Assembly (NCBI RefSeq): GCF_002934265.1
Contig: NZ_PTIX01000004.1
Location: 124,001-188,000, forward strand
Length of the DNA: 64,000 nucleotides
Direction: 5' to 3'
DNA from: Actinokineospora auranticolor
Lineage (GTDB): Bacteria; Actinomycetota; Actinomycetes; Mycobacteriales; Pseudonocardiaceae
Made by a program: the position numbers and the translations under genes. This document shows, in pieces, positions 13,949-61,392 of the stretch (within the stretch, counting starts at the first letter, position 1; each line of letters opens with the position of its first letter). Under the pieces are notes generated by a model. That model did not search any database. It was not told the origin of the DNA and saw only the letters and a list, made by a program, of their open reading frames with translations.

Positions 13949-15178
13949 ATGCGCGACCAGGACCGGCCACGCGACCAAGACCGACGCCGTGAGCAGCCCC
14001 GCGACCGCCGCCTGCCCCCGCCGCCCGGCACCCCCACCCGCCTGCCCGACCGCGCCGCCCCACCCCGCCCCGCGCGCAACCCCGCGGACGCCAAGACGGA
14101 GTTCATCCGCCCGGTCCGCCGCCCCGTCGACGGGCCCACCGAGCGGATCCGGCCGAACCGCGGCTCACTCCACGGCAGCCTCAACGGGTCCCTGAACGGC
14201 AGCCTCGACGCCCCGCGCCCCGCCCCGCCGCGGCGCGCCCCCGAACCCCCGACCGAGATCATCAAGCCGGTCGCCCCGCCCGTGGTCGACCCCGTGGACG
14301 AGCGCGACGAACCCCGCGACCCGTTCGACGACGAAATCGCGGAATCGCCCGCCAAACCGCCCCGGAAGAAACTCGGCACCGGTGCGAAGATCGTTCTCGG
14401 CGCGGGTGAACTGCTCGTCTCCGCCGGTCTCGTCGTCCTGCTATTCGTCGTCTACGAAGTGTGGATCACCGACCTGATCTCCGCGGGCAAACAGGACGAC
14501 GTGACCGTCGCGCTCGACGACCAATGGAACCAGGGCGATCCCGAGCGGCAGCAGAAGATCGAATTCGCCGACGGCCAGGGGATGGCCAAGCTCTACATCC
14601 CCGCGCTCGGCGAGGACTACCACTTCACCGTCGTCGAGGGCACCTCCACGGCCGATCTGGAAATCGGCCCCGGGCACTACAAGAAGTCCGCGCTGCCGGG
14701 GGAGCCGGGCAACTTCGCCGTGGCCGGGCACCGGGTCGGCAAGGGCGCGCCGTTCAACGACCTCGACCTGCTCCAGGCCTGCGACGCCATCGTCGTCGAG
14801 ACCAAGACCGGCTGGTTCGTCTACCGCATGCTGCCGACCACCGACGAGGCCGCGAACTGGGCGAACCGCGGCGCCGACCCGCTCTGCGCGGGCACCCCGG
14901 GCTCGGCGAAGGTCGAGCCGCTGACCGGTGACTACGCCGCCGCGGTCGGCCGCCAGATCGTCACCCCCGACCACAGCGAGGTCGTCGCGGCGATCCCGGG
15001 AAACCCGGCCGCCCGAATCCCGGTGGACCAGCGGCGGAAACTGATCACCCTCACCACCTGCCACCCGAAGTTCTCGAATAGGCAGCGGATGATCCTGCAC
15101 GGCGTCCTCGTGCGGGAACAGCCCAAGAACGCCGCCGATCGGGCGGCGGTGCCCGTGGAGTTGCGCGAGACCCGCTGA
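13949..15178 (+). CDS. Class E sortase
   Basis: Membrane transpeptidase that cuts LAxTG motifs and links surface proteins to peptidoglycan. 409 residues. A long cytoplasmic Pro/Arg/Asp-rich N-terminus with a small GSLNGSL repeat is followed by one membrane segment (about 156-177) and an extracellular sortase barrel. His261 lies in VAGHRVGKGAPF, Cys371 in TLTTCHP, and the Arg follows in SNRQRM, so the catalytic triad is complete. ATG 13949 has GAGGGGG upstream. It precedes a giant LAxTG adhesin by 140 bases, its likely substrate; a second LAxTG protein lies at 57906. Confidence 0.93.
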   Translation: MRDQDRPRDQDRRREQPRDRRLPPPPGTPTRLPDRAAPPRPARNPADAKTEFIRPVRRPVDGPTERIRPNRGSLHGSLNGSLNGSLDAPRPAPPRRAPEPPTEIIKPVAPPVVDPVDERDEPRDPFDDEIAESPAKPPRKKLGTGAKIVLGAGELLVSAGLVVLLFVVYEVWITDLISAGKQDDVTVALDDQWNQGDPERQQKIEFADGQGMAKLYIPALGEDYHFTVVEGTSTADLEIGPGHYKKSALPGEPGNFAVAGHRVGKGAPFNDLDLLQACDAIVVETKTGWFVYRMLPTTDEAANWANRGADPLCAGTPGSAKVEPLTGDYAAAVGRQIVTPDHSEVVAAIPGNPAARIPVDQRRKLITLTTCHPKFSNRQRMILHGVLVREQPKNAADRAAVPVELRETR

Positions 15179-46081: not shown

Positions 46082-46435
46082 ATGGCTGTCGCCCGCTTTC
46101 AGATCTACAGATCCGCCGACGCGGGAGTGACGTGGCGATTCCTGTCTGCGAACAACCGCAGCCTGGGACAGGCCGCCAGGTTGTTCGTCGACGCCGAGGC
46201 CTGCGCCCGCGCGCTGGTCGAACTCCGCGCCCGCGTCGCGGACGCCTCCGCCACCACCGCTCGGGAGACCACCTCCCAGCTCTGGTCGTGGCGGGTCCGG
46301 CTGGAGGGCGCCGACCTGGCCGTGTCCAGCCGCCGCTACCACCGCCGCGTCCAGGCCCAGTACGCCTGCCGCTCCTTCCTCGGTCTCGTGGCCGACGCCG
46401 CGCTCGCCGACCTGCCGAGGGCGGTGCGCTTCTGA
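46082..46435 (+). CDS. YegP/DUF1508-like protein
   Basis: 117 residues. The N-terminal half, MAVARFQIYRSADAGVTWRF followed by LSANNRSLGQAARLFVDAEA, matches the YegP fold (strand-helix repeat with a W and an N-G-like turn). The second half, with SQLWSWRVRLEGADLAVSSR, appears to be a diverged second copy. GGGAG lies 8 bases before ATG 46082. Function of the family is unknown. Confidence 0.72.
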   Translation: MAVARFQIYRSADAGVTWRFLSANNRSLGQAARLFVDAEACARALVELRARVADASATTARETTSQLWSWRVRLEGADLAVSSRRYHRRVQAQYACRSFLGLVADAALADLPRAVRF

Positions 46436-46580
46436 TGGCCCGCCGCACCGTCCACTCCGCACACGCCGACCGCGAACCCGGTTCGCGTTCGTCCGTTGTT
46501 CACGGTCGCATCGGAACCCGGCAAGCTGCGCGGGTTTGGCTCACCGGGTTCACCGAACACCAGACCCGGAGCGGCCGAAG

Positions 46581-47564
46581 ATGACCACACTCGAAGCGCG
46601 CAGGCGCCCGACCCTGTCCGGCGGGATCGACGGGGTCTTCCGCATCGCCTTGCGCACGGCGGGTTTCCTCGTCCTCGGTCTCATGGTGACGGTGGGCGGG
46701 TTCCTGCTCTTCCGCGGCCTCACCGCGTTCGCCGCGGCGGGACCGGCCTTCCTCACCACCCAGACCTGGGAGCCCGACTCCCGCAACTTCGGCATCGCCG
46801 CGGTGCTGGTCGGCACGCTGCTCATCGCCTCGGTCGCGCTGGTGGTGGCCTTCCCGATCGCGCTGGGCATGGCGCTCTACATCTCCGAGTACGCCCCCCG
46901 CTGGTTCAAGCGGTTCCTCACCTCCGCGATCGACCTGATGGCCGCGGTGCCCAGCGTCGTCTACGGGCTCTTCGGCGCCACGATGCTGCAGTGGAACGGG
47001 CTCGACGTCCCGCGCTGGCTGTCCATCCAGTTCGGCTGGATCCCGTTCCTCGACGTGCCGGAGGCCGACCCGGACAACCCGCTGTCGCCGCTGAACGTCT
47101 ACACCGCCTCCTCCTTCTGGGCGGGCCTGGTGGTCGGCTTCATGATCATGCCGTTCATCTGCTCGGTGATGCGCGAGTCGTTCACCCAGGCACCGCCCGG
47201 CGAGCGCGAGGGCGCCTACGCGCTCGGGTCCACCCGCTGGGGCATGATCCGCAGCGTGGTGCTGCCCTTCGGGCGCAGCGGCATGATCGGCGGCACCATG
47301 CTCGGCCTCGGCCGCGCGCTCGGCGAGACCATCGCCGTCGCGATGATCATCTCGCCGATCTTCGTGATCCAGCCGCACATCCTCGGCGCGGGCGCCAACT
47401 CGGTCTCCGCGCTCATCGCCCAGCAGTGGGGCGCGGCCAGCCCCTTCGGGCTCAGCGCGCTGATGGCCGCGGGCCTGGCGCTGTTCACCCTGACGCTGAT
47501 CGTCAACTTCGCCGCCTCCGCGGTGATCGCGCGCAGCCGCTCCGGTCAAGGGAGCGATGCCTGA
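46581..47564 (+). CDS. pstC: Phosphate-type ABC permease PstC
   Basis: 327 residues, six to seven membrane helices, binding-protein-dependent permease fold. The loop GAYALGSTRWGMIRSVVLPF is the EAA coupling segment, followed by GLGRALGETIAVAMI. MAAVPSVVYGLFGA is typical of PstC. ATG 46581. Upstream GGCTCACC and GGTTCACC (46538 and 46547) vaguely resemble PHO-box half-sites but with 9-base, not 11-base, spacing. First gene of a long, atypical operon whose ATPase is 14 kb away at its far end. Confidence 0.9.
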   Translation: MTTLEARRRPTLSGGIDGVFRIALRTAGFLVLGLMVTVGGFLLFRGLTAFAAAGPAFLTTQTWEPDSRNFGIAAVLVGTLLIASVALVVAFPIALGMALYISEYAPRWFKRFLTSAIDLMAAVPSVVYGLFGATMLQWNGLDVPRWLSIQFGWIPFLDVPEADPDNPLSPLNVYTASSFWAGLVVGFMIMPFICSVMRESFTQAPPGEREGAYALGSTRWGMIRSVVLPFGRSGMIGGTMLGLGRALGETIAVAMIISPIFVIQPHILGAGANSVSALIAQQWGAASPFGLSALMAAGLALFTLTLIVNFAASAVIARSRSGQGSDA

Positions 47565-48907
47565 TGTCCACGATGGAGCAGGGTGCGGTGGGACAGGAAG
47601 TCACGCAGCCGGTAGCGGCGCTGCCGGGGAGCACGCAGCCGGTGGCCGTCCGGCAGGAAACCGTCGCGACGGTCACCGTGCCGGTGCCGCACCAGACCGA
47701 GCAGCAACGGCCCAGGGGCCCGGAGGCGCGCCGCGACACGCGGTCGTTGCGGCCCGCCGACGTCGTCACCGTCATCGGCGCGCTGTGCGCGGCGGCGGCG
47801 ATGACCGGGCTGCTGTTCGACCAGATCGCCCCGTTCTCCGGCGTGGTCGGCTTCGTCGCCATCGCCTTCCCCTTGTTCCTGGCCGTCTACGCGCTGCTGG
47901 TGTCGCTGGAGAACGACGCGCTCGCCATCCGCGACAAGCTGGTCTCCGCGCTGCTGCACGGCATCATGGTGATGACCATCGGCGCGCTCTTCTGGATCAT
48001 CCTGTACCCGGTCCTCAAGGGCTGGGGCGTGATCTGGAACGGCAACTTCTACACCGAGGACATGTCCAACGCGGGCACCCTGGACCCGTTGGAGCTCGGC
48101 GGGATCCTGCACGCGATGGTCGGCACGCTCGAGCAGATCACCATCGCGCTGGTCATCACCGTGCCGCTTGGCCTGACCACCGCGGTGTTCCTCAACGAGA
48201 CCCGCGGCGTGTTCACCCGGGTGGTGCGGACCGTGGTCGAGGCGATGACCGCGCTGCCCTCGATCATCGCGGGCCTGTTCGTCTACGCCTCGCTGATCCT
48301 GCTGCTCGGCTTCACCCGGTCCGGCTTCGCCGCGGCCTGCGCGATCAGCATCATGATGCTGCCCATCATGATCCGGGCCGCGGACGTGGTGATCCGCCTG
48401 GTGCCCAGCTCGCTGCGCGAGGCGTCGCTGGCCATGGGCGCCGGGCAGCTGCGCACCGCGTGGCACGTGGTGCTGCCGACCGCCCGCTCCGGCCTGACCA
48501 CCAGCGTGCTGCTGGCCACCGCGCGCGGTGTGGGGGAGACCTCGCCGGTGCTCATCGCCGCCGGGTTCACCCCGTACCTGAACTTCGACCCGTTCAACGA
48601 CGCGCAGGTCTCGCTGCCCCTGGCCACCTACCAGATGGTGTCCTCGTCCGAGGACACCATGAAGACCCGCGCCTTCGGCGCCGCCGTCGTGCTGCTGGTG
48701 CTGGTGCTGGTGCTGTTCGTGCTCGCCCGGCTGCTCGGCGGCCGCGAGGCGGGCAACCTCTCCGCCGGTCAGCTGCGCCGCCGCAAGCGCGCGTCGGCGC
48801 ACGACCGCGAACGCTTCATCGAGGCGGCCACCCGCCGCGCCGCCCGCCCGCAGCCCACGCCGCCGCCGTGGTCGCCGCCCCAGCAGCCCCAAGGAGAGTC
48901 AGCATGA
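47564..48907 (+). CDS. pstA: Phosphate-type ABC permease PstA with an extended N-terminus
   Basis: 447 residues, longer than the usual ~300. A Gln/Thr/Val-rich cytoplasmic N-terminus of about 65 residues precedes the helices, and a C-terminal basic/Pro-rich tail of about 50 residues follows. MTALPSIIAGLFVYA and AMGAGQLRTAWHVVLPTARS are PstA-like, with RGVGETSPVLIAAG after the EAA loop. ATG 47564 overlaps the pstC stop (TGATG), and the stop overlaps the next start (ATGA). Confidence 0.9.
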   Translation: MSTMEQGAVGQEVTQPVAALPGSTQPVAVRQETVATVTVPVPHQTEQQRPRGPEARRDTRSLRPADVVTVIGALCAAAAMTGLLFDQIAPFSGVVGFVAIAFPLFLAVYALLVSLENDALAIRDKLVSALLHGIMVMTIGALFWIILYPVLKGWGVIWNGNFYTEDMSNAGTLDPLELGGILHAMVGTLEQITIALVITVPLGLTTAVFLNETRGVFTRVVRTVVEAMTALPSIIAGLFVYASLILLLGFTRSGFAAACAISIMMLPIMIRAADVVIRLVPSSLREASLAMGAGQLRTAWHVVLPTARSGLTTSVLLATARGVGETSPVLIAAGFTPYLNFDPFNDAQVSLPLATYQMVSSSEDTMKTRAFGAAVVLLVLVLVLFVLARLLGGREAGNLSAGQLRRRKRASAHDRERFIEAATRRAARPQPTPPPWSPPQQPQGESA

Positions 48908-50592
48908 CCCGCCAGGTACGCGTCAGGAGCCGGGTGCTCGCCCTGCTCTCGGCGCTCACCGTGCTCGTCACCGTGACGGTCGGGTTCGCCCCGGCCGCCG
49001 CGGCCCAGGGCTACGTCGCCATCAGCGGTGCCGGGTCGACGTGGAGCTTCAACGCCATCGACCAGTGGCGCAAGAACGTGCAGCAGTTCGGCATGCGGGT
49101 CAACTTCTCCGGCACCGGCTCCACCGACGGCCGCAACCAGTTCAAGGCGGGCCAGATCGACTTCGCCGTCTCGGAGATCCCCTACGGGCTCACCGACGGC
49201 GGCGTGAAGGACTACCCGCCCGCCGACGGCAACTTCGCCTACATGCCGATCGTGGCCGGTGGCACGTCGCTGATGTACAACCTCAAGATCGGCGGCAAGC
49301 GGGTGACGAACCTGCGGCTCTCCGGCGAGGTGGTCACCAAGATCTTCACCCGCCGGATCACCATGTGGAACGACCCGGCGATCCACGCCGACAACCCGTC
49401 GCTGACGCTGCCCGCCCGGCAGATCATCCCGGTGGTGCGCTCGGACGGCTCCGGCTCGACCGCGCAGTTCACCGCGTGGATGGCCGCCCAGCACGGCGCC
49501 ATCTGGGACGACTTCTGCCGCGAGGCCAAGCGAGCCACCCCGTGCGGGTTCACCTCGAACTACCCGTCGCTCAAGGGGATCATCGCCCAGGACAAGTCGA
49601 TCGGCGTCGCGAACTACGTCCGGCAGAACCAGAGCGAGGGCGCGATCACCTACGTCGAGTACTCCTACGCGAAGAACGCGGGCTTCCCGGTGGCGAAGCT
49701 GCTCAACGCGAAGGGCTACTACGTCGGGCCGACCGCGCAGGCGGTGGCGGTGGCGCTGCTGCGGGCCCGGATCAACGACGACCTGACCCAGGACCTCACC
49801 CAGGTCTACACCGACCAGGACGCCCGCACGTACCCGATGTCCAGCTACAGCTACATGATCATGCCGACGGCGGTGAACCAGAAGTTCAACGACCAGAAGG
49901 GCCGCACGCTCTCGGACTTCGCCTACTACTTCCTGTGCGAGGGCCAGCAGTCCGCGGACCGGCTCGGCTTCTCCCCGCTGCCGATCAACCTGGTGCAGGC
50001 CGGGCTCCGGCAGGTCGCCCGGATCCCCGGGTCGACCAGGCAGACGCCGGACCTGTCCCGCTGCAACAACCCGACCTTCTCCACCGACGGCACCAACACC
50101 CTCGCCAAGACCGCGCCGCAGCCCCCGGAGTGCGACCGCAAGGGCGCGACAGCGCAGTGCGACGACGCGGGCAAGCCCGCGACCAACACCGGCGGGAGCG
50201 GCGGCAGCAGTGGGGGCGGCTCCAAGACCGGCGGCTCCGGTGGGACCGGTGGGTCCTCGGGCGGTGGCACCTCCACCGGCGGCACCGGTGCGGGTGGTGA
50301 CGGCGCCGCGGGCGGTGGCGGCGCGGCGGGCGGCACCGGTGACGGCGCGGCAGGCGGTGATGGCGCGGCCGGTGGCGGCGACGGCGCGGGCGGAGGTGAC
50401 GGCGCCGAGGGCGGCGACGGTGGCGACGGCGGTTCGTCGGGCAACACCGCGACGGCCCAGCCGGTGTCGGTCGACCTGCCCCAGCGGGACGGCACGCTGC
50501 TGGTCATCGCGGCGGCCGTGCTGATGGTCGCCCTGGTCGCCGGACCACCGCTGGTGGCGCGGCTGATGCGCCGGACCGGGGGCCGGTCGTGA
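48904..50592 (+). CDS. PstS-like substrate-binding protein with Gly-rich linker and membrane anchor
   Basis: 562 residues. Sec signal (cleavage near AAAAQ, residue 36) without a lipobox Cys. The binding domain retains phosphate-site motifs: ISGAGSTWSF, FSGTGSTDG and RSDGSGSTAQFTAW. After about residue 400 comes a Cys-containing segment, then a Gly/Asp-rich repeat linker (about 425-520), a membrane helix (LLVIAAAVLMVALVAGPPLV) and a basic tail. So the binding protein is tethered from its C-terminus rather than by lipid. GTGA coupling to the next gene. Confidence 0.88.
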   Translation: MTRQVRVRSRVLALLSALTVLVTVTVGFAPAAAAQGYVAISGAGSTWSFNAIDQWRKNVQQFGMRVNFSGTGSTDGRNQFKAGQIDFAVSEIPYGLTDGGVKDYPPADGNFAYMPIVAGGTSLMYNLKIGGKRVTNLRLSGEVVTKIFTRRITMWNDPAIHADNPSLTLPARQIIPVVRSDGSGSTAQFTAWMAAQHGAIWDDFCREAKRATPCGFTSNYPSLKGIIAQDKSIGVANYVRQNQSEGAITYVEYSYAKNAGFPVAKLLNAKGYYVGPTAQAVAVALLRARINDDLTQDLTQVYTDQDARTYPMSSYSYMIMPTAVNQKFNDQKGRTLSDFAYYFLCEGQQSADRLGFSPLPINLVQAGLRQVARIPGSTRQTPDLSRCNNPTFSTDGTNTLAKTAPQPPECDRKGATAQCDDAGKPATNTGGSGGSSGGGSKTGGSGGTGGSSGGGTSTGGTGAGGDGAAGGGGAAGGTGDGAAGGDGAAGGGDGAGGGDGAEGGDGGDGGSSGNTATAQPVSVDLPQRDGTLLVIAAAVLMVALVAGPPLVARLMRRTGGRS

Positions 50593-53108
50593 ACCGCCGA
50601 CCCCGCGGCACCGAGCGGCTGGGCCGCCTGGTGCTCGCCGTGCTGATGATCGTCGCCGGGGTGGCCGTCGCGCTGCCCGCCAGCTCGGTCGCGGAGGGGC
50701 CCGCCTCGACCCCCTCCGCCGTCACCGTGCGCGGCACGGGCAAGTTCGCCTCGCTGGCGTTCACCGCGTCCCAGACCCGGGACCTGATCAACCAGACGGT
50801 CCACCTGTCGTGGACCGGCGCCGCGCCGACCGACGCCAACCGCGGCTACAACTACCTGCAGATCATGCAGTGCTGGGGCGACGACCCGACCGGCCCGCGG
50901 CGCGAGCAGTGCCAGTACGGCGTGCCGCAGGGCTCCTACGACTCGTCGGCCATGTTCTCCCGCGGGCTGATCTACAGCGACCTGCTCAAGGACCCGCTGG
51001 AGACCCAGCCGCAGCAGACCGAGAAGCCCGGCATGGGCACCTACGTGCCGTTCACCCCGGCCAGCCCCACCGACCCGGCCACCAAGCCGTGGGAACCGGG
51101 CTACGGCCTGTACTTCGACGCCTCCTCCACCAACGAGGTGCAGCAGGCGGTCACCCGCGAGGACGGCACCGGCGAGATCGACTTCGAGGTGCAGACCATG
51201 CTGGAGGCCTCCGGCCTGGAGTGCGGCCGGGTCCGCACCACCGGGGCCGACACCGGCAAGCCGCGGCACTGCTGGCTCGTCGTCGTGCCGCGCGGGGACA
51301 CCGAGGTCAACGGCGCCAAGGTCGGCACGCCCGGTGCGGGCGGCCACTACCACAACTACCTCGACACCTCCCCGCTCAGCGCGACCAACTGGGCCAACCG
51401 CATGGTGGTCCGGCTGGACTTCCTGCCGGTCGGCGAGTCGTGCGCGATCGGCCGGGCCGAGCGCCCGCTCAACGGCCACGAGTTCATCGCCGACGCCGTG
51501 CAGCGCTGGCAGCCCGCCCTGTGCGCGGGCAACGGGCCGGTGTTCGGGTTCGTGCAGATGGGCGACCGGGCGGCGCGCGCGCAGCTGGCCTCCGGCGAGC
51601 CCGGCATGGTGTTCCTGTCCAAACCGGCCACCGAGCAGCCCGCGACCGAACCCGCGGTCTACGCGCCGGTGGGGATCTCGGCCTACACCATCGCCTTCGT
51701 GATGGAGAAGCAGCCGTCGATCGCGGCCCCGCCCGACGACTACAAGAACAGCGGGCAGCTCATCCGCGAGCTCAACCTCACCCCCCGGCTGGTCGCCAAG
51801 CTGCTCACCCAGTCCTATTCGGACGCGGTGCCCGGTGCCCAGGAGTACCTTGCGGGCAACCCGGTCCGGCTGGTGCGGGACAAGGAGTTCCTCCAGCTCA
51901 ACCCCGAGTTCGACGTCAACGGGTTCAGCATGCTGACCATCGACGCGCTGGCCTCGTCGGTCGACTCCGACGCCACCGCGGACCTGTGGGCGTGGATCGG
52001 CGCCGATCCCGAGGCCCGCGACTTCCTCAACGGCAAGCCGGACCCGTGGGGTATGAAGGTAAACAAGAACTACCTCAACCTCGAACTGCCGCTGGAGAAC
52101 TTCCCCAAGGCCGACACGACCTGCATCGACGTCAAGTTCGGTGACCTGGTCGCGCCGATCTGCGCCACCACCCGGCACCCGCTGGTCGCCGACATGCACG
52201 AGGCGGGCCGCTCGGCCAACCGCGGCGACAGCATGGGCCGCGAGCCCAACGGCCAGCGCGACCCGCTCGACCTCACCCGCCCCGCGTTCGGCCGGATCGG
52301 CAGGCAGCCGATCGGTCGGCGCGCGATGCTGGCCGTGGTCGACAAGGCGACCGCGGACCGCTACGGCCTGTTCACCGCGAAGCTGCGCAACGCCTCGGGC
52401 AAGTTCGTCGCGCCGAGCGCGGAGAACATCCTGGCCGGTGTCGCCGAGATGACGCCGACCAAGACCGACGGCGTCAAGGGCGTCAACGTCACCCCCAAGG
52501 CCGCCAACGCCTACCCGCTGCCCATGGTCACCTACGCGGTCACCGCGCCCGCCGCTATCACCGCCGACGCGGGCAAGGACTACGCGACGCTGCTGCGCTT
52601 CGTCACCGGTAAGGGGCAGACCCCCGGTGAGGGCACCGGGCAGCTGCCCTCCGGTTACGTCCCGCTGCCGCAGGCTATGCGCGAGCAGGCGCTGGCCACC
52701 GCGACCACCGTCGAGAAGACCGCGGGCAAGAAGATCACCGTCCCCACCGAGGGCGTCGACCCGGACCCGGCCCCCGACGCGGGCGATGGTGGCGGCACGG
52801 ACTCCGGTGCCGGTGGTGGTGACGGTGGCGACTCGGGCACCGGCGGCGGCGGTACCGGGACCGGCGGACAGGGGGGCGGCGACACCGCCCCCGCGGCGGG
52901 CCAGACCCCGCAGACCGCGGCGCCCCCCGCGGCCGAGAAGCCCACCGACGACACCAGCAAGCCCGTCGCGGACACCAGGACCACCCCGGCCAGCCCGGTC
53001 GGCTGGTTCCTCAAGTACCTGCTGGTGCTGCTGCTGGTCGCGGGTGGACTGGCCGCGGGCGGCGGGCCGGTGCTGAGCATTCTCGGCAGCAGGCGGCGCA
53101 AACCGTGA
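50589..53108 (+). CDS. Large anchored PstS-related binding protein
   Basis: 839 residues from GTG 50589. Signal peptide (about 1-36), a long N-terminal domain with several Cys (MQCWGDDPTGP, EQCQYG), a middle region resembling periplasmic binding domains (GISAYTIAFVMEKQPS, LNLTPRLVAKLLTQSYSD), a Gly/Asp/Thr-rich linker (about 725-780), a membrane helix (WFLKYLLVLLLVAGGLAAGG) and the tail SRRRKP. No lipobox. It probably forms part of the same surface complex as its neighbours; ligand unknown. Confidence 0.85.
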   Translation: MNRRPRGTERLGRLVLAVLMIVAGVAVALPASSVAEGPASTPSAVTVRGTGKFASLAFTASQTRDLINQTVHLSWTGAAPTDANRGYNYLQIMQCWGDDPTGPRREQCQYGVPQGSYDSSAMFSRGLIYSDLLKDPLETQPQQTEKPGMGTYVPFTPASPTDPATKPWEPGYGLYFDASSTNEVQQAVTREDGTGEIDFEVQTMLEASGLECGRVRTTGADTGKPRHCWLVVVPRGDTEVNGAKVGTPGAGGHYHNYLDTSPLSATNWANRMVVRLDFLPVGESCAIGRAERPLNGHEFIADAVQRWQPALCAGNGPVFGFVQMGDRAARAQLASGEPGMVFLSKPATEQPATEPAVYAPVGISAYTIAFVMEKQPSIAAPPDDYKNSGQLIRELNLTPRLVAKLLTQSYSDAVPGAQEYLAGNPVRLVRDKEFLQLNPEFDVNGFSMLTIDALASSVDSDATADLWAWIGADPEARDFLNGKPDPWGMKVNKNYLNLELPLENFPKADTTCIDVKFGDLVAPICATTRHPLVADMHEAGRSANRGDSMGREPNGQRDPLDLTRPAFGRIGRQPIGRRAMLAVVDKATADRYGLFTAKLRNASGKFVAPSAENILAGVAEMTPTKTDGVKGVNVTPKAANAYPLPMVTYAVTAPAAITADAGKDYATLLRFVTGKGQTPGEGTGQLPSGYVPLPQAMREQALATATTVEKTAGKKITVPTEGVDPDPAPDAGDGGGTDSGAGGGDGGDSGTGGGGTGTGGQGGGDTAPAAGQTPQTAAPPAAEKPTDDTSKPVADTRTTPASPVGWFLKYLLVLLLVAGGLAAGGGPVLSILGSRRRKP

Positions 53109-53400
53109 GCGGGCCGGACCTGAGTCCACAAGGGACTGTCCATTGCAAACTTCTTGTTGGCCGCCCGGACACCAGTACGAGCCGGGAACGCAAACTTCGC
53201 CGCGATACCCACGATGGACCGGGAAGTCCGGGCCGCGCACGGCGGAGGAGGGGGTGATGCGCCGACCGGCCTGTGCGGGGAGTTAGCCGCTCCCGACACA
53301 GACCAGCCGGACACCTTGCGTGAGCAACCCGGTGCGGAACCACCGGGAACGTGCTCGGACACCAGTCCGCGCACCACTTGCGGAGAAAAGGATACATGTA
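53109..53400. other. Intergenic region with short direct repeats
   Basis: GCAAACTTC occurs at 53145 and 53190, CGGACACCAGT at 53166 and 53356, and CCGGGAACG at 53182 and near 53343. No supported gene. Probably a promoter/operator region for the second half of the locus; AAAAGGA gives the ribosome site of the gene at 53401. Confidence 0.5.
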
Positions 53401-54384
53401 GTGCGCAAGAAGCAGCGTTTGATCTTCGTGGCCGCCGCCGCGATCACCGCCCTCGGGCTCGCCGCCAACGCCGCCCAGGCGGACCCGGCGGGTGCCCCCA
53501 CCTACCGCGAGCTGGTGGGTGTCGGCTCCGACACCACCCAGACCGTGCTCAACGGCCTCGCCGACGCCGTGACCGTCAACGGCGTCAAGGTGCTGGGCTC
53601 CTACGACGCCCGCGGCACCGCGCAGATCACCACCAAGGACGCGGCCACCAACCCGGCCTGCACCATCGCCCGCCCGGAGAACTCCGGCGGCGGCGTGACC
53701 GCGCTGAAGAACGACGTCGCCGCGGGCACCGGCTGCGTGCAGTTCGCCCGCTCCTCGTCGAACTCGGCCGCGGCCAACCCCGACCTGAAGTTCATCCCGT
53801 TCGCGGTCGACGCCCTGACCTACGCGGTCCGCAGCGACAGCACCGTGCCGAAGAAGCTCACCAAGGCGCAGCTGACCTCGATCTACACCTGCGCCAACAC
53901 CACCTTCAAGCCGCTGGCGCCGCAGTTCGGCTCCGGCACCCGCAGCTTCTTCATCCGCTCCATCATGCCCACCGGCACCACCGACTCGGCCACGCTGTTC
54001 GGCCCCGGCGGCACCTACCCGTGCGTCACCGACAAGGACGCCACCGGTGAGGGCATCCAGGAGCACGTCGGCACCTACCTGACCGACACCAAGCACCTGC
54101 TGCCGTACTCGATCGCCGTGTACAACTCGCAGGTCTACGGCAACGCCCCGGCCGCGCAGGGCAAGGCCGTGCTGGGCACCATCGACAACGTCCAGCCGAC
54201 CAACCTGAACACCACCTCGGTGCTCAAGCGCGACGTCTACAACGTCATCCCGGCGAACAAGGTCACCGTGGCCCCGTACAGCACCGTCTTCGTCGGCGGC
54301 GACTCGCTGATCTGCGCCCGCCAGGACGTCATCACCCGCTACGGCTTCGGCGTCGCGCCCAACTGCGGTCAGCCCGTCTCCTGA
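53401..54384 (+). CDS. Secreted substrate-binding-type protein (PstS-like fold)
   Basis: 327 residues. Signal peptide (cleavage near ANAAQA, residue 23), no lipobox and no C-terminal anchor, so it is released or held by partners. Binding-domain motifs: VGVGSDTTQTVLNGL, then GCVQFARSSS and GSGTRSFFIRSIM. The GSDTTQ wording is typical of a diverged PstS group. GTG 53401 with AAAAGGA at about 9 bases. It follows the two anchored binding proteins and precedes the WxL-like gene by 44 bases. Confidence 0.87.
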   Translation: MRKKQRLIFVAAAAITALGLAANAAQADPAGAPTYRELVGVGSDTTQTVLNGLADAVTVNGVKVLGSYDARGTAQITTKDAATNPACTIARPENSGGGVTALKNDVAAGTGCVQFARSSSNSAAANPDLKFIPFAVDALTYAVRSDSTVPKKLTKAQLTSIYTCANTTFKPLAPQFGSGTRSFFIRSIMPTGTTDSATLFGPGGTYPCVTDKDATGEGIQEHVGTYLTDTKHLLPYSIAVYNSQVYGNAPAAQGKAVLGTIDNVQPTNLNTTSVLKRDVYNVIPANKVTVAPYSTVFVGGDSLICARQDVITRYGFGVAPNCGQPVS

Positions 54385-54428
54385 GCGCCTACACCCCCTT
54401 CTCCCCTTCCTGAAAGGTTTGCACAACC

Positions 54429-56006
54429 GTGCGAAACACCATCGCTCGTAGGCTCGTCGGCGGCGCAGTCGTGTTCGCCGCCGCCACCGCGGCCACCCTC
54501 GGCGCCGTCGGCGTCGCGTCCGCCGACAACCCCGTCGGCAACCTCGGCACCGTGACCGGCAACAAGCTGACCGGTCTCGACACCGACGCCCCCACCTGGA
54601 CCACCGCCGCGGGCTGCTCCCCCGACTCCGACGGCTACAACCTCTACATCCACGGTCCGGGCGGCTTCAACGGCGGCCTCGTCGCCACCCCCGTCACGGA
54701 CGTGGGCTTCTCCACCGCCGCAGGCTTCGGCGTCGTGCAGGGCCAGACCTTCAAGGACATCGCGCTCGACAACAGCACCACGATCGTGCCGGGCAAGTAC
54801 ACGATCAAGGTCAACTGCGTCGACCAGTTCGCGGCGGAGACCAAGGGCTCCTTCACCCGCGACATCTACTTCACCTCGGCCACCGCGTGGCAGAGCAACA
54901 ACCCGGCCGACCCGGTGCCGACCACGACCGCGCTGTCGGTCGCCCCGGCCTCCCCGGTCACCCAGGGCGCCAACGTCACCCTGACCGCCACCGTGTCCCC
55001 GGCCTCCGCCACCGGCACCGTGCAGTTCAAGGACGGCGCGGGCAACCTCGGCTCCCCGGTGACCGTGGTCAACGGTGTCGCCACCTTGTCCACCACCGCG
55101 CTGGCGGCGGGCAACCGCTCGCTGACCGCGGCGTTCACCGGCTCGTCCGCCCTGGTCGGCAACTCGACCTCGGCTGCGGTCAACTACCAGGTCAACGCCC
55201 CGGTCGTGACCCAGACCAGCACCGCCCTCGCGGTCACCCCGAGCGGCTCGGTCCAGGCGTTCACCCCGGTCACCCTGAGCGCCACCGTGGCCCCGGCCTC
55301 GGCGGCGGGCACCGTCCAGTTCTACGACGGCGCCAACACCCTGGGCAACCCGGTCGCCGTCGCGGGCGGCTCGGCCACCCTGAACACCTCGACCCTCGCG
55401 GTCGGCGCGCACAACTTCACCGCGCGCTTCACCCCGGCCAACGCCGCGCTCTTCGCGCCCTCGGCCTCGGTCGCCGTCGCCCTGGACGTCACCCCGTTCG
55501 CGGGCGTGTCGGCCTCGGAGAACATCACCACCACCGTCGTCGCCGGTGAGCTGCTGATCAGCGTCGCGAACCAGAACGTGGTCCTGCCCTCCCCGGTCAT
55601 GGCCGCCGACGGTTCGCTGCTGACCACCGCGGGCTCGCTGAACCCGATCAAGGTCGTCGACACCCGCGCGGGCAACCCGGGCTGGAACGTCTCCGGCCAG
55701 GTGTCCGACTTCTCCAACGGTGCCGCCAGCATCAACGGCGCGAACCTGGGCTGGACCCCCAAGCTGGTCGACAAGGCCGCGGTCCAGAACATCACCGTCG
55801 GCGCGCAGGTGAACCCGGCCAACGCCATCGCCCCGGGTGCCTCGGCCCCCGCGGGCCTCGGCCTGGCCTCCTCGCGGACCCTCGCCACCGCTTCCGCCCT
55901 GGGCGGCAACGGCACCGCGAACCTGTCCGCGGACCTGGCCCTGAACGTCCCCACCTCCACCGTGGCGGGCACCTACTCGGCGCTGCTGACCCTCACCGCC
56001 ATCTGA
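54429..56006 (+). CDS. Secreted Ig-repeat protein with a WxL-like C-terminal domain
   Basis: 525 residues. Signal peptide (to about 33); a 110-residue domain beginning LGTVTGNKLTGLDTDAP that recurs in neighbouring proteins; two Ig-like (Big_5-type) repeats (about 158-255 and 258-355; TVQFKDGAGNLGSPVTVVNG and TVQFYDGANTLGNP); and a C-terminal domain with VVDTRAGNPGWNVSGQVSDF and a final TYSALLTLTAI. The last resembles WxL domains, which bind peptidoglycan non-covalently, and the next gene encodes a DUF916 WxL-partner protein. GTG 54429; GAAAGG is 11 bases upstream. Confidence 0.82.
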   Translation: MRNTIARRLVGGAVVFAAATAATLGAVGVASADNPVGNLGTVTGNKLTGLDTDAPTWTTAAGCSPDSDGYNLYIHGPGGFNGGLVATPVTDVGFSTAAGFGVVQGQTFKDIALDNSTTIVPGKYTIKVNCVDQFAAETKGSFTRDIYFTSATAWQSNNPADPVPTTTALSVAPASPVTQGANVTLTATVSPASATGTVQFKDGAGNLGSPVTVVNGVATLSTTALAAGNRSLTAAFTGSSALVGNSTSAAVNYQVNAPVVTQTSTALAVTPSGSVQAFTPVTLSATVAPASAAGTVQFYDGANTLGNPVAVAGGSATLNTSTLAVGAHNFTARFTPANAALFAPSASVAVALDVTPFAGVSASENITTTVVAGELLISVANQNVVLPSPVMAADGSLLTTAGSLNPIKVVDTRAGNPGWNVSGQVSDFSNGAASINGANLGWTPKLVDKAAVQNITVGAQVNPANAIAPGASAPAGLGLASSRTLATASALGGNGTANLSADLALNVPTSTVAGTYSALLTLTAI

Positions 56007-56053
56007 GGCAGCACACCGGGAATTCGGCTGAATCCAGCTAGTTGACGCAGCCG

Positions 56054-56090
56054 GTGGGGCGGATCGGGCCAGGCCCCCGGTCCGCCCCAC
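56054..56090 (+). terminator. Hairpin after the WxL-like gene
   Basis: A 15-bp stem (56054-56068 with 56076-56090, one wobble) and a 7-base loop, 47 bases past the stop, within the operon. May attenuate rather than end transcription. Confidence 0.65.
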
Positions 56091-56121
56091 ACCCCCGACC
56101 GACACGACGAAGGACCTCCCC

Positions 56122-57129
56122 ATGACGCGGATCTGGCGCCTACCGGTGCTGTTGGGTCTGTTGACCGCCCTGGTGCTGGGTATCGCACCCGCGCCCGCCG
56201 CCGCGGCGCCCGCGACGTTCGGCGTGCGGCCCGCGACCGCGGCCGCGCCGGACAACCGCCCCAACTTCAGCTACAGCGCCACCCCGGGCGCGGTGATCGT
56301 CGACTACCTGGCCGTGGCCAACGTGTCCAACGACCCGTTGAAGCTCAAGCTCTACGCCAACGACGCCTTCAACACCCCCGACGGCGGGTTCGACCTGCTG
56401 GCGTCGGGGAACCGGTCGGTCGACGTCGGCTCGTGGGCCGCGCTGGAGACCGGCGACGTGGAGGTCCCCGGCCGCACCACCCGCATCGTGCCGTTCCGCG
56501 TGGTCATCCCGCAGAACGCCACCCCCGGCGACCACGTCGGCGGCATCGTGGCCGCGCTGGTGACCGAGGCGACCAACGCCGAGGGGCAGCGCGTGGCCGT
56601 CGAGCAGCGCGTCGGCGCCCGCATCTACCTCCGGGTGTCGGGCGAACTGCGGCCCCACCTGTCCATCGAGGACTTGACCGCCGACTACGTCGGCTCGTAC
56701 TTCGGCACCGGTGAGACCGTCGTCGAGTACACCGTGCGCAACACCGGCAACGTGCGGCTGGGCGGCAAGCAGAAGGTCACCGTCGAGACCCCCTGGGGCT
56801 CCGGGACCGCCGCGCCGGACCTGAAGGACGTGCCGGAACTGCTGCCCGGCAACGCGCACCGCGTGCGCACCACCGTCCCGGGCGTGCTGCCCGCCGGTTG
56901 GCTGGACACCCTCGTGCACATCGACCCGGTCGCGCCGCCCGGACCGCAGCCCGCCGCCGAGGCGGTCGACGCGAGCGTCACGGTCGTCGCGGTGCCGTGG
57001 CTGGTGCTCTCCATCCTGCTGCTCGTGGTCGCGCTGACCGTGTTCCTGCTGTGGCGCAGGCGGAAGCGCCGCGCCACCGGCAAGTCCGCACCGGAACCGC
57101 TGCCGGAGGTCGAACGTGCTTCTGCGTAA
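56122..57129 (+). CDS. DUF916 (WxL-interacting) membrane-anchored protein
   Basis: 335 residues. Signal peptide (about 1-29), then FGVRPATAAAPDNRPNFSYS, the typical start of the DUF916/WxLIP domain, with VIPQNATPGDHVGGIVAAL following. A C-terminal helix (about 292-312) and RRRKRR tail leave the protein on the outer face. DUF916 proteins bridge WxL proteins and the cell wall in Firmicutes. AAGGA precedes ATG 56122. The next gene overlaps by 14 bases. Confidence 0.85.
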   Translation: MTRIWRLPVLLGLLTALVLGIAPAPAAAAPATFGVRPATAAAPDNRPNFSYSATPGAVIVDYLAVANVSNDPLKLKLYANDAFNTPDGGFDLLASGNRSVDVGSWAALETGDVEVPGRTTRIVPFRVVIPQNATPGDHVGGIVAALVTEATNAEGQRVAVEQRVGARIYLRVSGELRPHLSIEDLTADYVGSYFGTGETVVEYTVRNTGNVRLGGKQKVTVETPWGSGTAAPDLKDVPELLPGNAHRVRTTVPGVLPAGWLDTLVHIDPVAPPGPQPAAEAVDASVTVVAVPWLVLSILLLVVALTVFLLWRRRKRRATGKSAPEPLPEVERASA

Positions 57130-57874
57130 CCTCGCCGTGGTCGCCGCCGCCGCGGGCGCGCTCGCGATCACCCTGCCCGGCACGGCGTCGGCCGACCGCG
57201 TCGGCGGGTTGCTCATCACGCCGGGGGAGAGCGTCGACCAGGTCCCGGTGCGGCTCAAGACCGAGAAGGGCTGCCCGGCGGGCACCACCGGCTACTTCGC
57301 CACGATGACCGGGCACGGCCTCGACAACGTCGTCGTGGTGCCCGCCAGCGACGTGTCGATGTCGCTCACCGACGGGTTCGTGGTGCCGGTCGCCTACACC
57401 TTCCGCGACTACGCCCAGGACAACAAGACCACGCTCAGCGGGCGCTACCAGGTGGCCCTGCACTGCGTGGACGCCTTCACCCAGCAGGAGTTCGGCACCT
57501 TCACCGCCGAGGTCGACTTCCCGGAGCCCAGCCGGTACGCCGCCGTGGGTCCCGCCAAGGGGCCCGCGCGCAACACCGAGCCGATCATGCCGCCGGAGTT
57601 GGGCCTGGCGGAGCAGCCGGGGGTCGCGCCGCCCGTCGAGGGCGGCACCGGGGCGGGGCAGCCGCAGCCCGCGCGGCAACCGCCCGCTGGGCAGCCGTCG
57701 ACACCGAACGACCCGTCCAATTCGTCCGATGTGGACACTTCGACGCAGGCCGCGCCGGAGTCCTCGTCGAAGCTCTTCTACTACGTGGCGGGCGGTGTGG
57801 CTGTTGTCGTGCTCGGCGCGGGGATCGCCGTGGCTCGCAGCCGGGGCACGAGAACCGAGTCCGACTCCGAGTGA
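57116..57874 (+). CDS. Membrane-anchored surface protein with the shared ~110-residue domain
   Basis: 252 residues. Signal peptide (cleavage near TASA, residue 24); a diverged copy of the shared domain (about 25-140), including AYTFRDYAQDNKTTLSGRYQ and ALHCVDAF; a Pro/Gln/Ser linker; and a C-terminal helix (YYVAGGVAVVVLGAGIAVA) with an acidic end, no LPxTG-type motif. GTG 57116 overlaps the DUF916 gene, so the two products are likely made in parallel. Confidence 0.82.
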   Translation: MLLRNLAVVAAAAGALAITLPGTASADRVGGLLITPGESVDQVPVRLKTEKGCPAGTTGYFATMTGHGLDNVVVVPASDVSMSLTDGFVVPVAYTFRDYAQDNKTTLSGRYQVALHCVDAFTQQEFGTFTAEVDFPEPSRYAAVGPAKGPARNTEPIMPPELGLAEQPGVAPPVEGGTGAGQPQPARQPPAGQPSTPNDPSNSSDVDTSTQAAPESSSKLFYYVAGGVAVVVLGAGIAVARSRGTRTESDSE

Positions 57875-57905
57875 CGCGCTCGGACCTACTGGAGGAATAC
57901 CGTTC

Positions 57906-59498
57906 ATGCGCAAGCGCCAACTGATCGCGGCCGGTGCCGCGGTCCTCACCCTGTCCTCGGCGGGCGTCATCCTCGCCGCGGCGGGCAGCGAGGCCGAGGT
58001 CCCGGCGGCCACGCTGGGCACGCTGACCCCGTCGAAGACCTCCGGTCTGGACACCGACGCGCCCAGCTACACCACCCAGGGCCCCTGCCCGACCAACTCC
58101 GACGGGTTCAAGGTCGACGTCTACGGCCCCGGCGGCTTCGCGAGCGGCTTACCGGCGACCACCGTGTCCGACGCGGGTTTCTCCACGGACGCGGCGTTCA
58201 CCGTGCCGCAGACCTACGTGTTCCGCGACATCGCGCAGGACGCCTCCACCACGATCGTGCCGGGGAAGTACACGGTCGTGCTGAGCTGCATGGACCAGTT
58301 CGAGTCCCAGGTCCGCGGCACGTTCACCCGTGAGCTGTTCTTCACCACGCCGACCAAGTGGCAGCTGACGGACCCGACCGCGCCGACGACCACGACCCCG
58401 CAGCCGACCACGACGACTCCGGTGCCGACGACCACGACTCCTGAGCCGACGACGACTACGCCGGAGCCGACGACCACCACGCCGGAACCGACGACTACGA
58501 CTCCGGAGCCCACTACTACGACTCCCGAGCCGACCACCACCACTCCGGAACCCACTACGACCACCCCGGAGCCCACCACGACGACTCCTGAGCCGACCAC
58601 TACGACTCCTGAGCCGACGACGACTACGCCGGAGCCGACGACCACCACGCCGGAACCGACGACTACGACTCCGGAGCCCACCACGACGACTCCCGAGCCC
58701 ACCACCACTCCGGAGCCGACCACCACCGTCGAGCCGACCACCACGGTCGCCCCGACCACGTCGACGGACCCCGACACCCCGCCGCTGCTCGGTCTGCTCA
58801 CCCCCAACAAGACCAGCGGCCTCGACGTCGACGCGCCGACCTGGACCACCGCCGGGCCCTGCCCCACCGGGACGGACGGCTACCAGCTCGACATCGTCGG
58901 CCCCGGCGACAAGTTCAAGAACGGCCTCAACATGACCGCGGTCGGTGACGTGGGCCTCTCCACCACCGCGCCCTTCCCCGCGACCCAGACGCTGACCTTC
59001 AAGGACGTCGCCAACGACGCGGGCACCACCATCGAACCCGGCCGCTACGCCGTCATCCTCAGCTGCGTGGTCCAGATCGAGGCCCGCGCCGTCGCCTTCT
59101 ACGGTGTGGCCATCGACTTCACCAGCCCCACCGAGTGGAACCTGGTCAAGGGCAACCCCACCACGCCACCGAAGACCACCCCGCCGACCACTACGACCAC
59201 CACCGGTGCCACCACCACTACGGGCGCGACGACCACCACCGGTGAGACCACGACCAGTGGCGAGACCACCAGTGGCACCACCGACCCGGCCCCCCAGGGC
59301 GGCGTCGGCGGTGGCACCGACGGCGGTAGCGGCTCCGGTTCGGGCTCCGGCACCGGCAACCTGGCCAGCACCGGCGCGTCGATCGGCTTCACCGTCCTCT
59401 CGGGCGTGGCCCTGATCGGCTTCGGCGCTGTCGCCATCGCGGCGACCCGCCGCCGCCGGGCCACCCCCGCCCCGACGCCGTGGCCGACCGACAGCTGA
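57906..59498 (+). CDS. LAxTG wall-anchored protein with two copies of the shared domain and a PEPTTTT linker
   Basis: 530 residues. Signal peptide (to about 31); first shared domain (about 34-150; [20 protein letters not shown]); a Thr/Pro linker of about a dozen PEPTTTT units (about 157-290); second shared domain (about 293-410; [20 protein letters not shown]); a Thr/Gly-rich stretch; LASTG at about 486; a membrane helix; and an RRRR stop. The LASTG signal suits the class E sortase encoded at 13949, since the neighbouring sortase-like protein lacks catalytic residues. GGAGGA lies before ATG 57906. Confidence 0.9.
58377..58760 (+). repeat. In-frame tandem repeat (21-base unit, PEPTTTT)
   Basis: About a dozen near-identical 21-base units with silent third-base changes inside the LAxTG gene. 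Longer identical blocks recur (for example the ACTACGCCGGAGCCGACGAC region), implying block duplication. Copy number is likely to vary between strains. Confidence 0.85.
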
Positions 59499-59507
59499 CC
59501 CACCAAC

Positions 59508-59546
59508 CCGTGTGCGCCGGGGTGCGACCCACCCCGGCGCACACGG
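59508..59546 (+). terminator. Perfect 17-bp hairpin after the LAxTG gene
   Basis: A 17-bp perfect stem (59508-59524 with 59530-59546) and a 5-base loop, 9 bases past the stop and 77 bases before the sortase-like gene. It would separate or attenuate the last two genes of the locus. Confidence 0.78.
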
Positions 59547-59623
59547 CCGCTCCGGCGTGAGGGGGCCGGTGCCGTGCCCGCACGACACCGGTCCGCTCCG
59601 CCCGCACCGAGAAAGGACGCCGG

Positions 59624-60547
59624 GTGACCGCGCTCGACACACCACCGCCGCTGGAGCCGTCGCCCGCCGCTCCCATGCCGGGGCTCGACGACCCGCCGCG
59701 GCCGCCGCGCGGCGTGCTCCAGCTCATCGGGCAGATGCTGGCCATCCTCGGCACCGTGCTGCTGTGCTTCGTCGTGCAGCTCAGCCTCGTCGGCACCGCC
59801 CAGCACGACCGCGACCAGAGCACCGCCTACGACGACTTCCGCCGCGAACTCGCCAACGGCACCGCCCCGGTCGGCGCGCTCGTCGACGGCAGGCTGCTCG
59901 ACAGCGGCACCTCCGTGGCCATCCTGGAGATCCCGCGCATCGGCGTGCGCGAGGTCGTCGCCGAGGGCACCTCGGCCCGCACGCTCAAGTCCGGCCCCGG
60001 CCACCTGCGCAACACCCCCATGCCCGGCCAGGCGGGCACCAGCGTCATCTACGGCCGCCGCGCCACCTACGGCGGCCCGTTCGCGCTGCTCGACAAGCTG
60101 CGCTCCGGCGACGAGATCATCGTGACCACCGGCCAGGGCGAGAGCCGCTACGTCGTGCAGGGCGTCCGCCGCGCCAACGACAAGGAGCGCCCCGCCCTCC
60201 AGTCCGGCCAGGGCAGGCTCACCCTGGTCACCGCCGACGGCAGCTACTACGTGCCCAGCGACATCCTGCGCGTCGACGCCCGCCTGTCCTCCGAGGCCTT
60301 CGACGGCAACCGGCGGCTCCCCGCCTTCGCCGTCCCCGACGACGAGAAGGCCATGGTCGGCGACGCTTCCGCGCTGACGCCCCTCGCGCTGTGGATCCTC
60401 GTGCTCGCCGCCGCCGCGGTCGCCGTGGTGCTCATCCGCCACCGGCTCGGCCGCTGGCACGCCTGGGTCATCGGCGCGCCCGTGCTCGGCGTCGTCGGAC
60501 TCACCCTGGCCGACGCGACCGCGGGCCTGCTGCCCAACCTGATGTGA
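59624..60547 (+). CDS. Sortase-fold membrane protein lacking the catalytic residues
   Basis: 307 residues from GTG 59624 (GAAAGGA upstream). An N-terminal helix (about 33-55) is followed by a sortase-like barrel: [35 protein letters not shown], and [18 protein letters not shown]. The catalytic His is replaced by Arg145 ([10 protein letters not shown]), the Cys by Ala204 ([11 protein letters not shown]), and no Arg follows. Two C-terminal helices (about 250-270 and 280-303) complete the protein, unlike ordinary class E sortases. It is probably a structural or binding subunit. It precedes pstB. Confidence 0.87.
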
Positions 60548-60564
60548 CCGACGAGGAGAACCCA

Positions 60565-61392
60565 GTGACCACGATCCCCGTAGACCTGACGCGGCCCATG
60601 GTGCCGCCCCTCGACGGTCAGGCCACCATCGACGCCCGCGCGGTCTCCGCCTGGTTCGGCGAGCGCAAGGTCCTCGACCGCGTGTCGCTGGTGATGCCCG
60701 CGGGCACCGTCACCGCGCTCATCGGCCCCTCCGGCTGCGGCAAGTCCACCTTCCTGCGCACCCTGAACCGCATGCACGAGCTCATCCCCGGCGCCAGCCT
60801 GGCGGGCGAGGTCTTCCTCGGCGACAAGGACATCTACGACCCGGCCCGCAAGCTCACCGACGCGCGCAAGCAGATCGGGATGGTGTTCCAGAAGCCCAAC
60901 CCGTTCCCGGCCATGTCGATCTACGACAACGTGCTCGCCGGCCTCAAGCTGACCGGCGTCAAGGCGAGCCGGGCCGAGCGCGACGACCTCGTCGAGCAGT
61001 GCCTGGCCAAGGCGGGCCTGTGGCTCGAGGTCCGCGACCGCCTGCGCTCGCCGGGCGGCGCGCTCTCCGGTGGCCAGCAGCAGCGGCTCTGCATCGCGCG
61101 CTCGCTGGCCGTGCGGCCCAAGGTCCTGCTGATGGACGAGCCGTGTTCGGCGCTGGACCCCACCTCGACCCGGCGCATCGAGCAGACGATCGGCGAGCTG
61201 GCGCACGAGGTGACCATCGTGATCGTCACCCACAACATGCAGCAGGCCGCCCGCGTCTCCCAGCAGTGCGCGTTCTTCCTCGCCGAACAGGGCACCCCGG
61301 GCGCCATCGTCGAGGCGGGCCCCACCGAGAAGATCTTCTCCGCCCCCGTGGACCCCCGGACCTCCGACTACGTCCACGGCCGCTTCGGCTGA
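60565..61392 (+). CDS. pstB: Phosphate-type ABC ATPase PstB
   Basis: 275 residues. Walker [39 protein letters not shown] (a PstB hallmark), signature [17 protein letters not shown], Walker [14 protein letters not shown], and the H-loop VTHNM. GTG 60565 has GAGGAG at 5-6 bases. It is the only ATPase of the locus and should power the pstC-pstA permease encoded 13 kb upstream. Confidence 0.95.

Follow-up and report, generated by a model that had tools for sequence, protein, structure and literature searches.

A conserved actinobacterial Pst-type gene set with tethered binding proteins and a sortase-fold protein lacking catalytic residues

We analyzed a run of eleven genes in a 64,000-nucleotide stretch of Actinokineospora auranticolor DNA (the window), which belongs to contig C4 of the 8.4-Mb genome. 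The run occupies positions 46581-61392 and encodes, all on the forward strand, PstC, PstA, three binding proteins here called S1, S2 and S3, a WxL-like immunoglobulin (Ig) protein, a DUF916 protein, a C-terminally anchored protein, an LAxTG-tailed protein, a sortase-fold protein that we call the pseudo-sortase, and PstB. A preliminary description had listed these eleven genes, and the open reading frames and profile matches place every one of them as described. Pst is the textbook high-affinity phosphate importer. The results reported here concern a gene set that is conserved well beyond this genome and that combines a Pst-type transporter with membrane-tethered binding proteins and a sortase-fold protein in which the catalytic residues are replaced.

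Relatives of the locus were collected with an alignment of 12 S2 proteins. A search of named genomes yielded 296 relatives, of which we retained the 80 most similar in S2, and every one of these 80 loci was scanned with hidden Markov models of the components. A locus was scored as complete when pstC, the pseudo-sortase gene and pstB were all called (61 loci); the other 19 are truncated where a contig or locus ends, or miss one of the three calls. Three of 12 loci taken from the order are the same DNA as loci from named genomes (L032/L096, L033/L100 and L039/L136), so the sets of 80-92 sequences used below contain up to three duplicates. The kept loci span Pseudonocardiaceae, Micromonosporaceae, Streptomycetaceae, Streptosporangiaceae, Nocardioidaceae, Cellulomonadaceae, Microbacteriaceae and others, and the S2 sequences nearest to that of the window in the tree are from Actinokineospora.

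The order S1-S2-S3-...-pseudo-sortase-PstB is kept in 58 of the 61 complete loci, and the pseudo-sortase gene is placed between S2 and pstB in all 61. The three exceptions to the order are L130, with split genes and no S3 call, and L171 and L172, where S3 follows pstB. Free variation of the genes between pstA and pstB, which the preliminary description had named as the outcome speaking against a shared system, was not seen. The separation of pstC-pstA from pstB, to which it had drawn attention, is present in the window and fails as a general trait. The gene pstB precedes pstC in L060/L087, L061/L088, L110 and L185, and L084 and L186 have another order; the deeper lineages among these (L060/L087, L061/L088, L185, L084 and L186) keep the gene content, not the order. 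The split is lineage-specific, not universal. In Actinoplanes liguriensis (L130) the pstA, DUF916 and pstB calls are all split, and this locus is possibly decaying or carries a draft error.

The permease genes pstC (46581..47564) and pstA (47564..48907) both score above curated TIGRFAM cut-offs, with 245.4 bits for TIGR02138 (cut-off 196.45) and 208.5 bits over residues 128-392 for TIGR00974 (cut-off 193.45); PstA has transmembrane-like segments and an extended N terminus. The ATPase gene pstB (60565..61392; ABC_tran, 113.2 bits) has relatives of 75-89% identity in the order loci and its product is 60% identical to the ordinary PstB of the same genome. In the window pstC and pstA overlap by 1 base, and pstA/S1 and S1/S2 by 4 bases each, so that pstC-pstA-S1-S2 forms one tight run. 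Overlaps of the ATGA or TGATG type join S1 to S2 in 69 of 73 loci, pstA to S1 in 48 of 66 and pstC to pstA in 30 of 66. Furthermore, PstA and S1 form a single fused reading frame (1039-1443 residues), its exact start not fixed, in seven loci (L117, L133, L134, L135, L138, L140 and L144) from Streptacidiphilus, Kitasatospora, Nocardioides and a Propionibacteriales metagenome-assembled genome. The fusion ties S1 to the PstA permease of this set. Loss of pstA from these seven loci was considered and rejected, since they hold the fused gene. The conserved order, the S1-S2 overlaps, the PstA-S1 fusions and the promoter repeat described below support the earlier proposal of a fixed multi-protein gene system.

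S1 (48904..50592) is a PstS-like binding protein with a signal peptide, a Gly-rich linker, a C-terminal transmembrane segment and no lipobox (TIGR00975, 205.2 bits against a cut-off of 205). Both S1 and S2 begin with a hydrophobic signal and end in a hydrophobic segment with basic residues after it; in S3 only the N-terminal segment is present. Across the collected proteins a C-terminal transmembrane-like segment is found in 84 of 85 S1, in 78 of 92 S2 (within the last 75 residues) and in none of 87 S3, and a lipobox-like motif within the first 45 residues of S1 in 0 of 85. At positions that we take to be ligand contacts, as in E. coli PstS, S1 is strongly conserved: among the 85 proteins T10 is Thr or Ser in 84, S38 is kept in 84, the acid at D56 in 85 (E in 63, D in 22), R135 in 77, S139 in 79, G140 in 85, and T141 is Thr or Ser in 84. 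Thus the two anchored binding proteins and one secreted binding protein of the preliminary description stand as to anchoring and secretion, with the addition that S1 keeps a phosphate-type site and S2 does not.

S2 (50589..53108) consists of an N-terminal extra region, a PstS-fold region (about residues 296-720) without the phosphate loop, and a C-terminal transmembrane segment. It matches PstS in its C-terminal part alone (36 bits, below cut-off), and hhalign pairs S1 with S2 residues 296-839 at 98.6% and E 6e-16, the portion beyond about residue 720 being linker and transmembrane segment. A phosphate loop of the RSDGSGT type occurs in 1 of 92 S2 proteins, which disfavors S2 as a phosphate binder of the PstS kind. 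S3 (53401..54384) is a secreted PBP_like_2 protein (PF12849, 36.4 bits, cut-off 27) with an SGT loop, a motif found in 81 of 87 relatives. In seven loci of the type that lacks the WxL and DUF916 genes (type II, below), from Streptomyces, Planotetraspora, Cellulomonas, Curtobacterium, Glaciihabitans and Auritidibacter, S3 is 663-732 residues long; in the single one of the seven that was scanned (L157), the C-terminal half contains Ig and fn3 domains.

The pseudo-sortase (59624..60547) has N- and C-terminal transmembrane segments, ends in LLPNLM and matches the PF04203 Sortase domain with 77.2 bits (cut-off 26.6), as do all 59 relatives scanned of the 80 collected. Its closest solved relatives by sequence are sortases, 5go6 (E 1e-18) and the class E enzyme SrtE1 (5cuw, E 3e-8), and NCBIfam class E sortase is the top family match, below cut-off (85.8 versus 160 bits). 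Paired with 5go6, the window protein reads GRRATYG for GHRRTYG and LTLVTA for LTLVTC, so that the catalytic His is replaced by Arg145 and the Cys by Ala204; the sortase Arg, presumably catalytic as well, is replaced by Ile214. These losses are general. The His column holds R in 79 of 80 pseudo-sortases and K in one, compared with H in all four reference sortase-domain proteins of the same genome, and the Cys column holds A in 70, S in 4, G in 4, T in 2 and Cys in none. Two class E-type references are poorly aligned at the Cys column, and the pairing with 5go6 gives the same result. No R occurs in the 80 proteins at the column paired with the sortase Arg. Meanwhile, PN is present within the last eight residues of all 80, behind the C-terminal hydrophobic segments. 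The earlier claim of an inactive sortase-fold protein is confirmed at this level. An active sortase with shifted residues was also considered and is disfavored, as 79 of 80 have no Cys anywhere in the aligned sortase region. Loss of the catalytic residues together with strict retention of the gene is what would be expected of a pseudoenzyme kept for binding or structure. A separate class E-type sortase, in which the His and Cys motifs are intact, is encoded about 45 kb upstream (14591-15112 of the window) and is a candidate anchoring enzyme for the LAxTG protein.

The pseudo-sortase and S2 travel together. S2 is patchily distributed, with matches in 24 of 200 genomes of the order, 24 of 200 of the family and 8 of 396 of the phylum, where two candidates per genome were scored. 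In the order sample a full-length pseudo-sortase was found in 23 of the 24 S2 genomes versus 0 of the 176 without S2; the sole S2 genome lacking it (G089) is a metagenome-assembled genome in 380 contigs. The 27 pseudo-sortase places at E <= 1.9e-34 in these 23 genomes each reach the C terminus, and all 27 share a contig with an S2 gene and lie no more than about 7 kb from it. Five weaker places follow (E about 1e-27), all in a single genus and in genomes with no S2 match. The two of these five that were read (L180 7367-10728 and L181), from another genus of the family, represent a third, distant type, in which a sortase-fold protein with the same residue losses overlaps by four bases a distant S2-like gene (98.0%, E 2e-13 against S2), with pstC-pstA-pstB, S1-like and S3-like genes as neighbors. 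The remaining, weaker matches to the pseudo-sortase query mostly end at about residue 170-220, as ordinary sortases would. Sequence distances of S2 and the pseudo-sortase correlate with r = 0.92 (n = 80), the highest of 36 component pairs. Carriage as plasmid or phage cargo was considered as well; no S2 match was found in the plasmid and phage collections searched.

Between S3 and the pseudo-sortase the window holds a block of surface genes. The WxL-like Ig protein (54429..56006) comprises a domain shared with its neighbors, two Big_3_5 domains and the one WxL-like C terminus of the cluster, with W-x-V and W-x-P motifs; its WxL match is 19 bits, against a Pfam cut-off of 25. It is followed by the DUF916/WxLIP protein with a C-terminal transmembrane segment (56122..57129; PF06030, 28.5 bits, cut-off 27.3), the single PF06030 match in the whole genome, by the C-terminally anchored protein with the shared domain (57116..57874; 33.8% identity to the Ig protein, E 2e-15), and by the protein with a LASTG tail (57906..59498; NF058583, 31.5 bits, below the cut-off of 65). 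The shared domain is about 115 residues long, shows 31-53% identity among the Ig, anchored and LAxTG proteins, and occurs twice in the last of these; it was found in 40 of 42 DUF916 loci versus 8 of 38 others. The two W columns of WxL-type proteins hold W in 50 and 43 of 52, and Pfam WxL was matched at E <= 0.01 in 17 of the 25 scanned from those 52. All 19 DUF916-type proteins scanned, of 53 collected, match PF06030 at E <= 0.01, and 48 of the 53 have a transmembrane-like segment. LAxTG-like tails among genes between S3 and the pseudo-sortase gave 23 matches in 21 loci, a count that includes chance matches and in which at least two (L112 15224 and L143 13817) look like chance; such a tail is part of the DUF916 reading frame in some loci of Streptomyces.

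This block is optional. WxL and DUF916 genes lie between S2 and the pseudo-sortase in 33 of the 61 complete loci (type I) and not in the other 28 (type II), so the label "wall-assembled" given in the preliminary description does not hold for the core. On a quick S2 tree the type label requires 6 changes, versus 24.7 in shuffles. A DUF916 search of the 200 order genomes found a match in 52, from which 40 stretches of 8.7-20 kb were read. Ten stretches carry relatives of S1, S2 and the pseudo-sortase, with pstC/pstA in nine, the tenth (L058) stopping at a contig end; the other 30 are without this core, 21 of them with a WxL-like match, and therefore WxL/DUF916 pairs also occur alone. Streptomyces olivochromogenes A53 carries type I and type II together (L121 and L158), which suggests separate roles, and two strains of S. 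shenzhenensis have one type each (L118 and L154). A WxL/DUF916-type cluster in a record titled as a Bifidobacterium breve metagenome-assembled genome (L115) groups with Hamadaea on a long branch, so that the bin or the title looks wrong.

Upstream of pstC lies a small conserved gene, U (about 46082..46435, forward strand, start inferred), whose product contains the motif WRFLSANNRSLG and has no significant Pfam match. Among 72 loci in which pstC is preceded by 900 bp or more of sequence, relatives of U are present in 29 of the 35 that hold DUF916 (in 23 of 35 within 400 bp of the pstC reading frame), compared with 10 of the 37 others. Short proteins resembling U, as judged by eye, also occur near the L180 and L185 clusters. 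About 95 bp 5' of pstC, at 46487..46504 on the forward strand, is a direct repeat of 11-bp period that resembles a PHO box. The published PHO box is described as an 11-bp direct repeat in which GTTCACC is most conserved, with the Actinosynnema form GTTCACGC (PMC9019756). When two heptamers were scored in the 340 bp around and before the pstC start, with a threshold of 11 of 14 matches, the repeat at 11-bp spacing was found in 29 of 73 loci (Markov controls 6.2%), and spacings of 8, 9, 10, 12, 13 and 14 gave 6, 6, 3, 4, 5 and 4 of 73. The 11-bp spacing before other genes was seen in 3 of 66 loci for pstB, 1 of 41 for WxL, 0 of 42 for DUF916 and 11 of 77 for S3. The ordinary pst set of the genome scores 13; the second copy on contig C17 scores 12, though other spacings reach 12-13 there, and seven further loci score below 11. 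A promoter and terminator pattern scan gave nothing above shuffles. We consider the set to be probably Pho-controlled and switched on by phosphate limitation.

The genome contains three pstC/pstA pairs. An ordinary set on contig C6 has a PstS with lipobox, pstC, pstA and pstB, with a PhoU-like gene (labeled from sequence) about 3.5 kb away, and this separate set makes that of the window an additional one. The divergent second copy on C17 consists of pstC, pstA, S1, S2, the pseudo-sortase gene, pstB and a convergent S3, with no WxL/DUF916 genes. No phoU was found beside the pstB of the window, where the following genes encode STAS and CAP-domain proteins.

These observations suggest an additional, specialized Pst-type importer of actinobacteria, with a tethered S1/S2 receptor held by a non-catalytic sortase-fold membrane subunit, a reading to which we give an even chance. 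PstC, PstA and PstB would be the pump, served by S1, which would bind phosphate or a closely related oxyanion and has a C-terminal membrane helix in place of the lipid anchor. S2 would be a partner with a PstS fold that has lost the PstS mode of phosphate binding and may instead dock S1 to the pump or lengthen the receptor. The pseudo-sortase may be a membrane subunit of the putative complex that holds the C-terminal stalks of S1 and S2, and of the LAxTG protein where present, uncut; stalks held without cutting would keep the receptors at the pump. An added outer layer could be formed by S3, joined in about half of the loci by the WxL/DUF916/LAxTG block, and phosphate limitation would probably turn the genes on. 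More tentatively, and somewhat short of an even chance, the dead sortase may be a fixed subunit of an ATP-binding cassette (ABC) importer that recognizes the C-terminal stalks of the tethered binding proteins, much as a sortase reads a sorting signal, holds on to them uncut, and forms with S2, itself deprived of its binding site, a receptor tower on the pump.

Several points weigh against this model. The binding of tails by the pseudo-sortase is itself only an inference. S1 differs from E. coli PstS in F11 to W (83 of 85) and D56 to E (63 of 85), and with these changes the ligand could be another anion. The pseudo-sortase and pstB genes overlap by ATGA or TGATG in 18 of 66 loci only. The PHO-box-like repeat is absent upstream of pstC in 44 of 73 loci and in 7 of 8 further loci, and regions upstream of S3 also show repeats at spacings of 9 and 10 (10 and 11 of 77) and those upstream of DUF916 at spacing 12 (10 of 42), so that shared sequence in related loci can produce an excess. 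Finally, all distance correlations between components beat permutations, as expected from a shared species tree alone.

Of the alternatives, the one that survives best, although we regard it as unlikely, is a sensor in place of a pump, in which a regulator would be informed of phosphate, or of wall-bound phosphate, through the Pst parts and the tethered receptors, like PhoR through PstSCAB, and uptake would be secondary. The genome already has an ordinary pst set, so that a second pump is not obviously needed, and S2 without its loop and the pseudo-sortase resemble signaling or scaffold parts. However, among the 15 most widespread flanking families, judged by eye from 90 residues, only U recurs widely, and no kinase, response regulator, PhoU or other conserved regulator was recognized; PstB and both permeases look complete, which may be needless for a sensor alone.

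Less probable is an adhesive or wall-structuring surface complex with a recruited transporter, in which phosphate binding would serve attachment to mineral or teichoic phosphate. The Ig, fn3, WxL-like, DUF916 and LAxTG features of the surface genes fit such a role, and the csc clusters of Firmicutes have been proposed as surface complexes (PMC1534035), but the transporter core and the pseudo-sortase are kept in the 28 complete loci of type II. It is about as doubtful that the sortase-fold protein is an enzyme of other chemistry, or a chaperone that passes LAxTG tails to the housekeeping class E sortase. The near-invariant Arg145 and the LAxTG-like tails of 21 loci, chance matches included, would suit either role, whereas the lack of Cys in the sortase region argues against it, as does the retention of the pseudo-sortase in the type II loci of Streptomyces, in which its gene follows directly on S3 and no gene is called between. 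That unrelated surface genes entered a pst operon by chance, a view for which no supporting point was found, is contradicted by the order kept across many families and by the close co-occurrence, and we give it practically no credence.

Returning to the importer with tethered receptors, we regard the set as known parts in a new assembly: a Pst-type importer that is conserved, has its receptors tethered and is accompanied by a dead sortase. The gene system itself is established; the function proposed here is a reasoned guess. Control by phosphate matters for the production of antibiotics by actinomycetes. If the proposal is true, an additional Pst system of patchy distribution, with its receptors tethered, would mean that a part of phosphate physiology has been missed, and a conserved sortase family without catalytic residues, full length only in S2 genomes of the order sample, would show the sortase fold put to a new use. 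According to the available portion of a 2021 review, the systems conserved throughout the actinobacteria studied are PstSCAB and duplicated Pit, and no such second set is mentioned there (PMC7866108). A published description of this gene set was not found in the titles and abstracts that searches of open-license PubMed Central (PMC) papers returned, and an earlier description elsewhere is possible.

Compared with known systems, the set shares with PstSCAB the proteins PstC, PstA and PstB, a PstS-type protein that keeps most phosphate ligand columns, and in part of the loci a PHO-box-like repeat. It differs in that S1 is anchored by a C-terminal helix and has no lipobox, whereas the PstS of PstSCAB is a lipoprotein, and in having, besides S1, a PstS-fold partner that lacks the loop (S2), a secreted third binding protein (S3) and a pseudo-sortase gene; the window copy is also without an adjoining PhoU-like gene. 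The csc clusters of Firmicutes consist of CscA (DUF916), CscB/CscC (WxL) and CscD (LPxTG) (PMC1534035), and WxL clusters have been defined by two or more WxL proteins per cluster (PMC10599100). As in those clusters, a DUF916 protein with a C-terminal transmembrane segment adjoins WxL-like and sorting-signal proteins here. In contrast, the present cluster has one WxL-like C terminus, one fewer than that definition asks for, lies inside a transporter operon and has an LAxTG protein of 530 residues, versus 90-140 residues for CscD; the main text of the csc paper uses neither "ABC transporter" nor "phosphate" (PMC1534035). With class E sortases the pseudo-sortase shares the sortase domain and an N-terminal transmembrane segment, SrtE1 (5cuw) being related and the best matches, 5go6 and 5go5, having no class label. 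Unlike those enzymes, it has replacements at the catalytic His, Cys and Arg and carries C-terminal hydrophobic segments that end in a PN tail.

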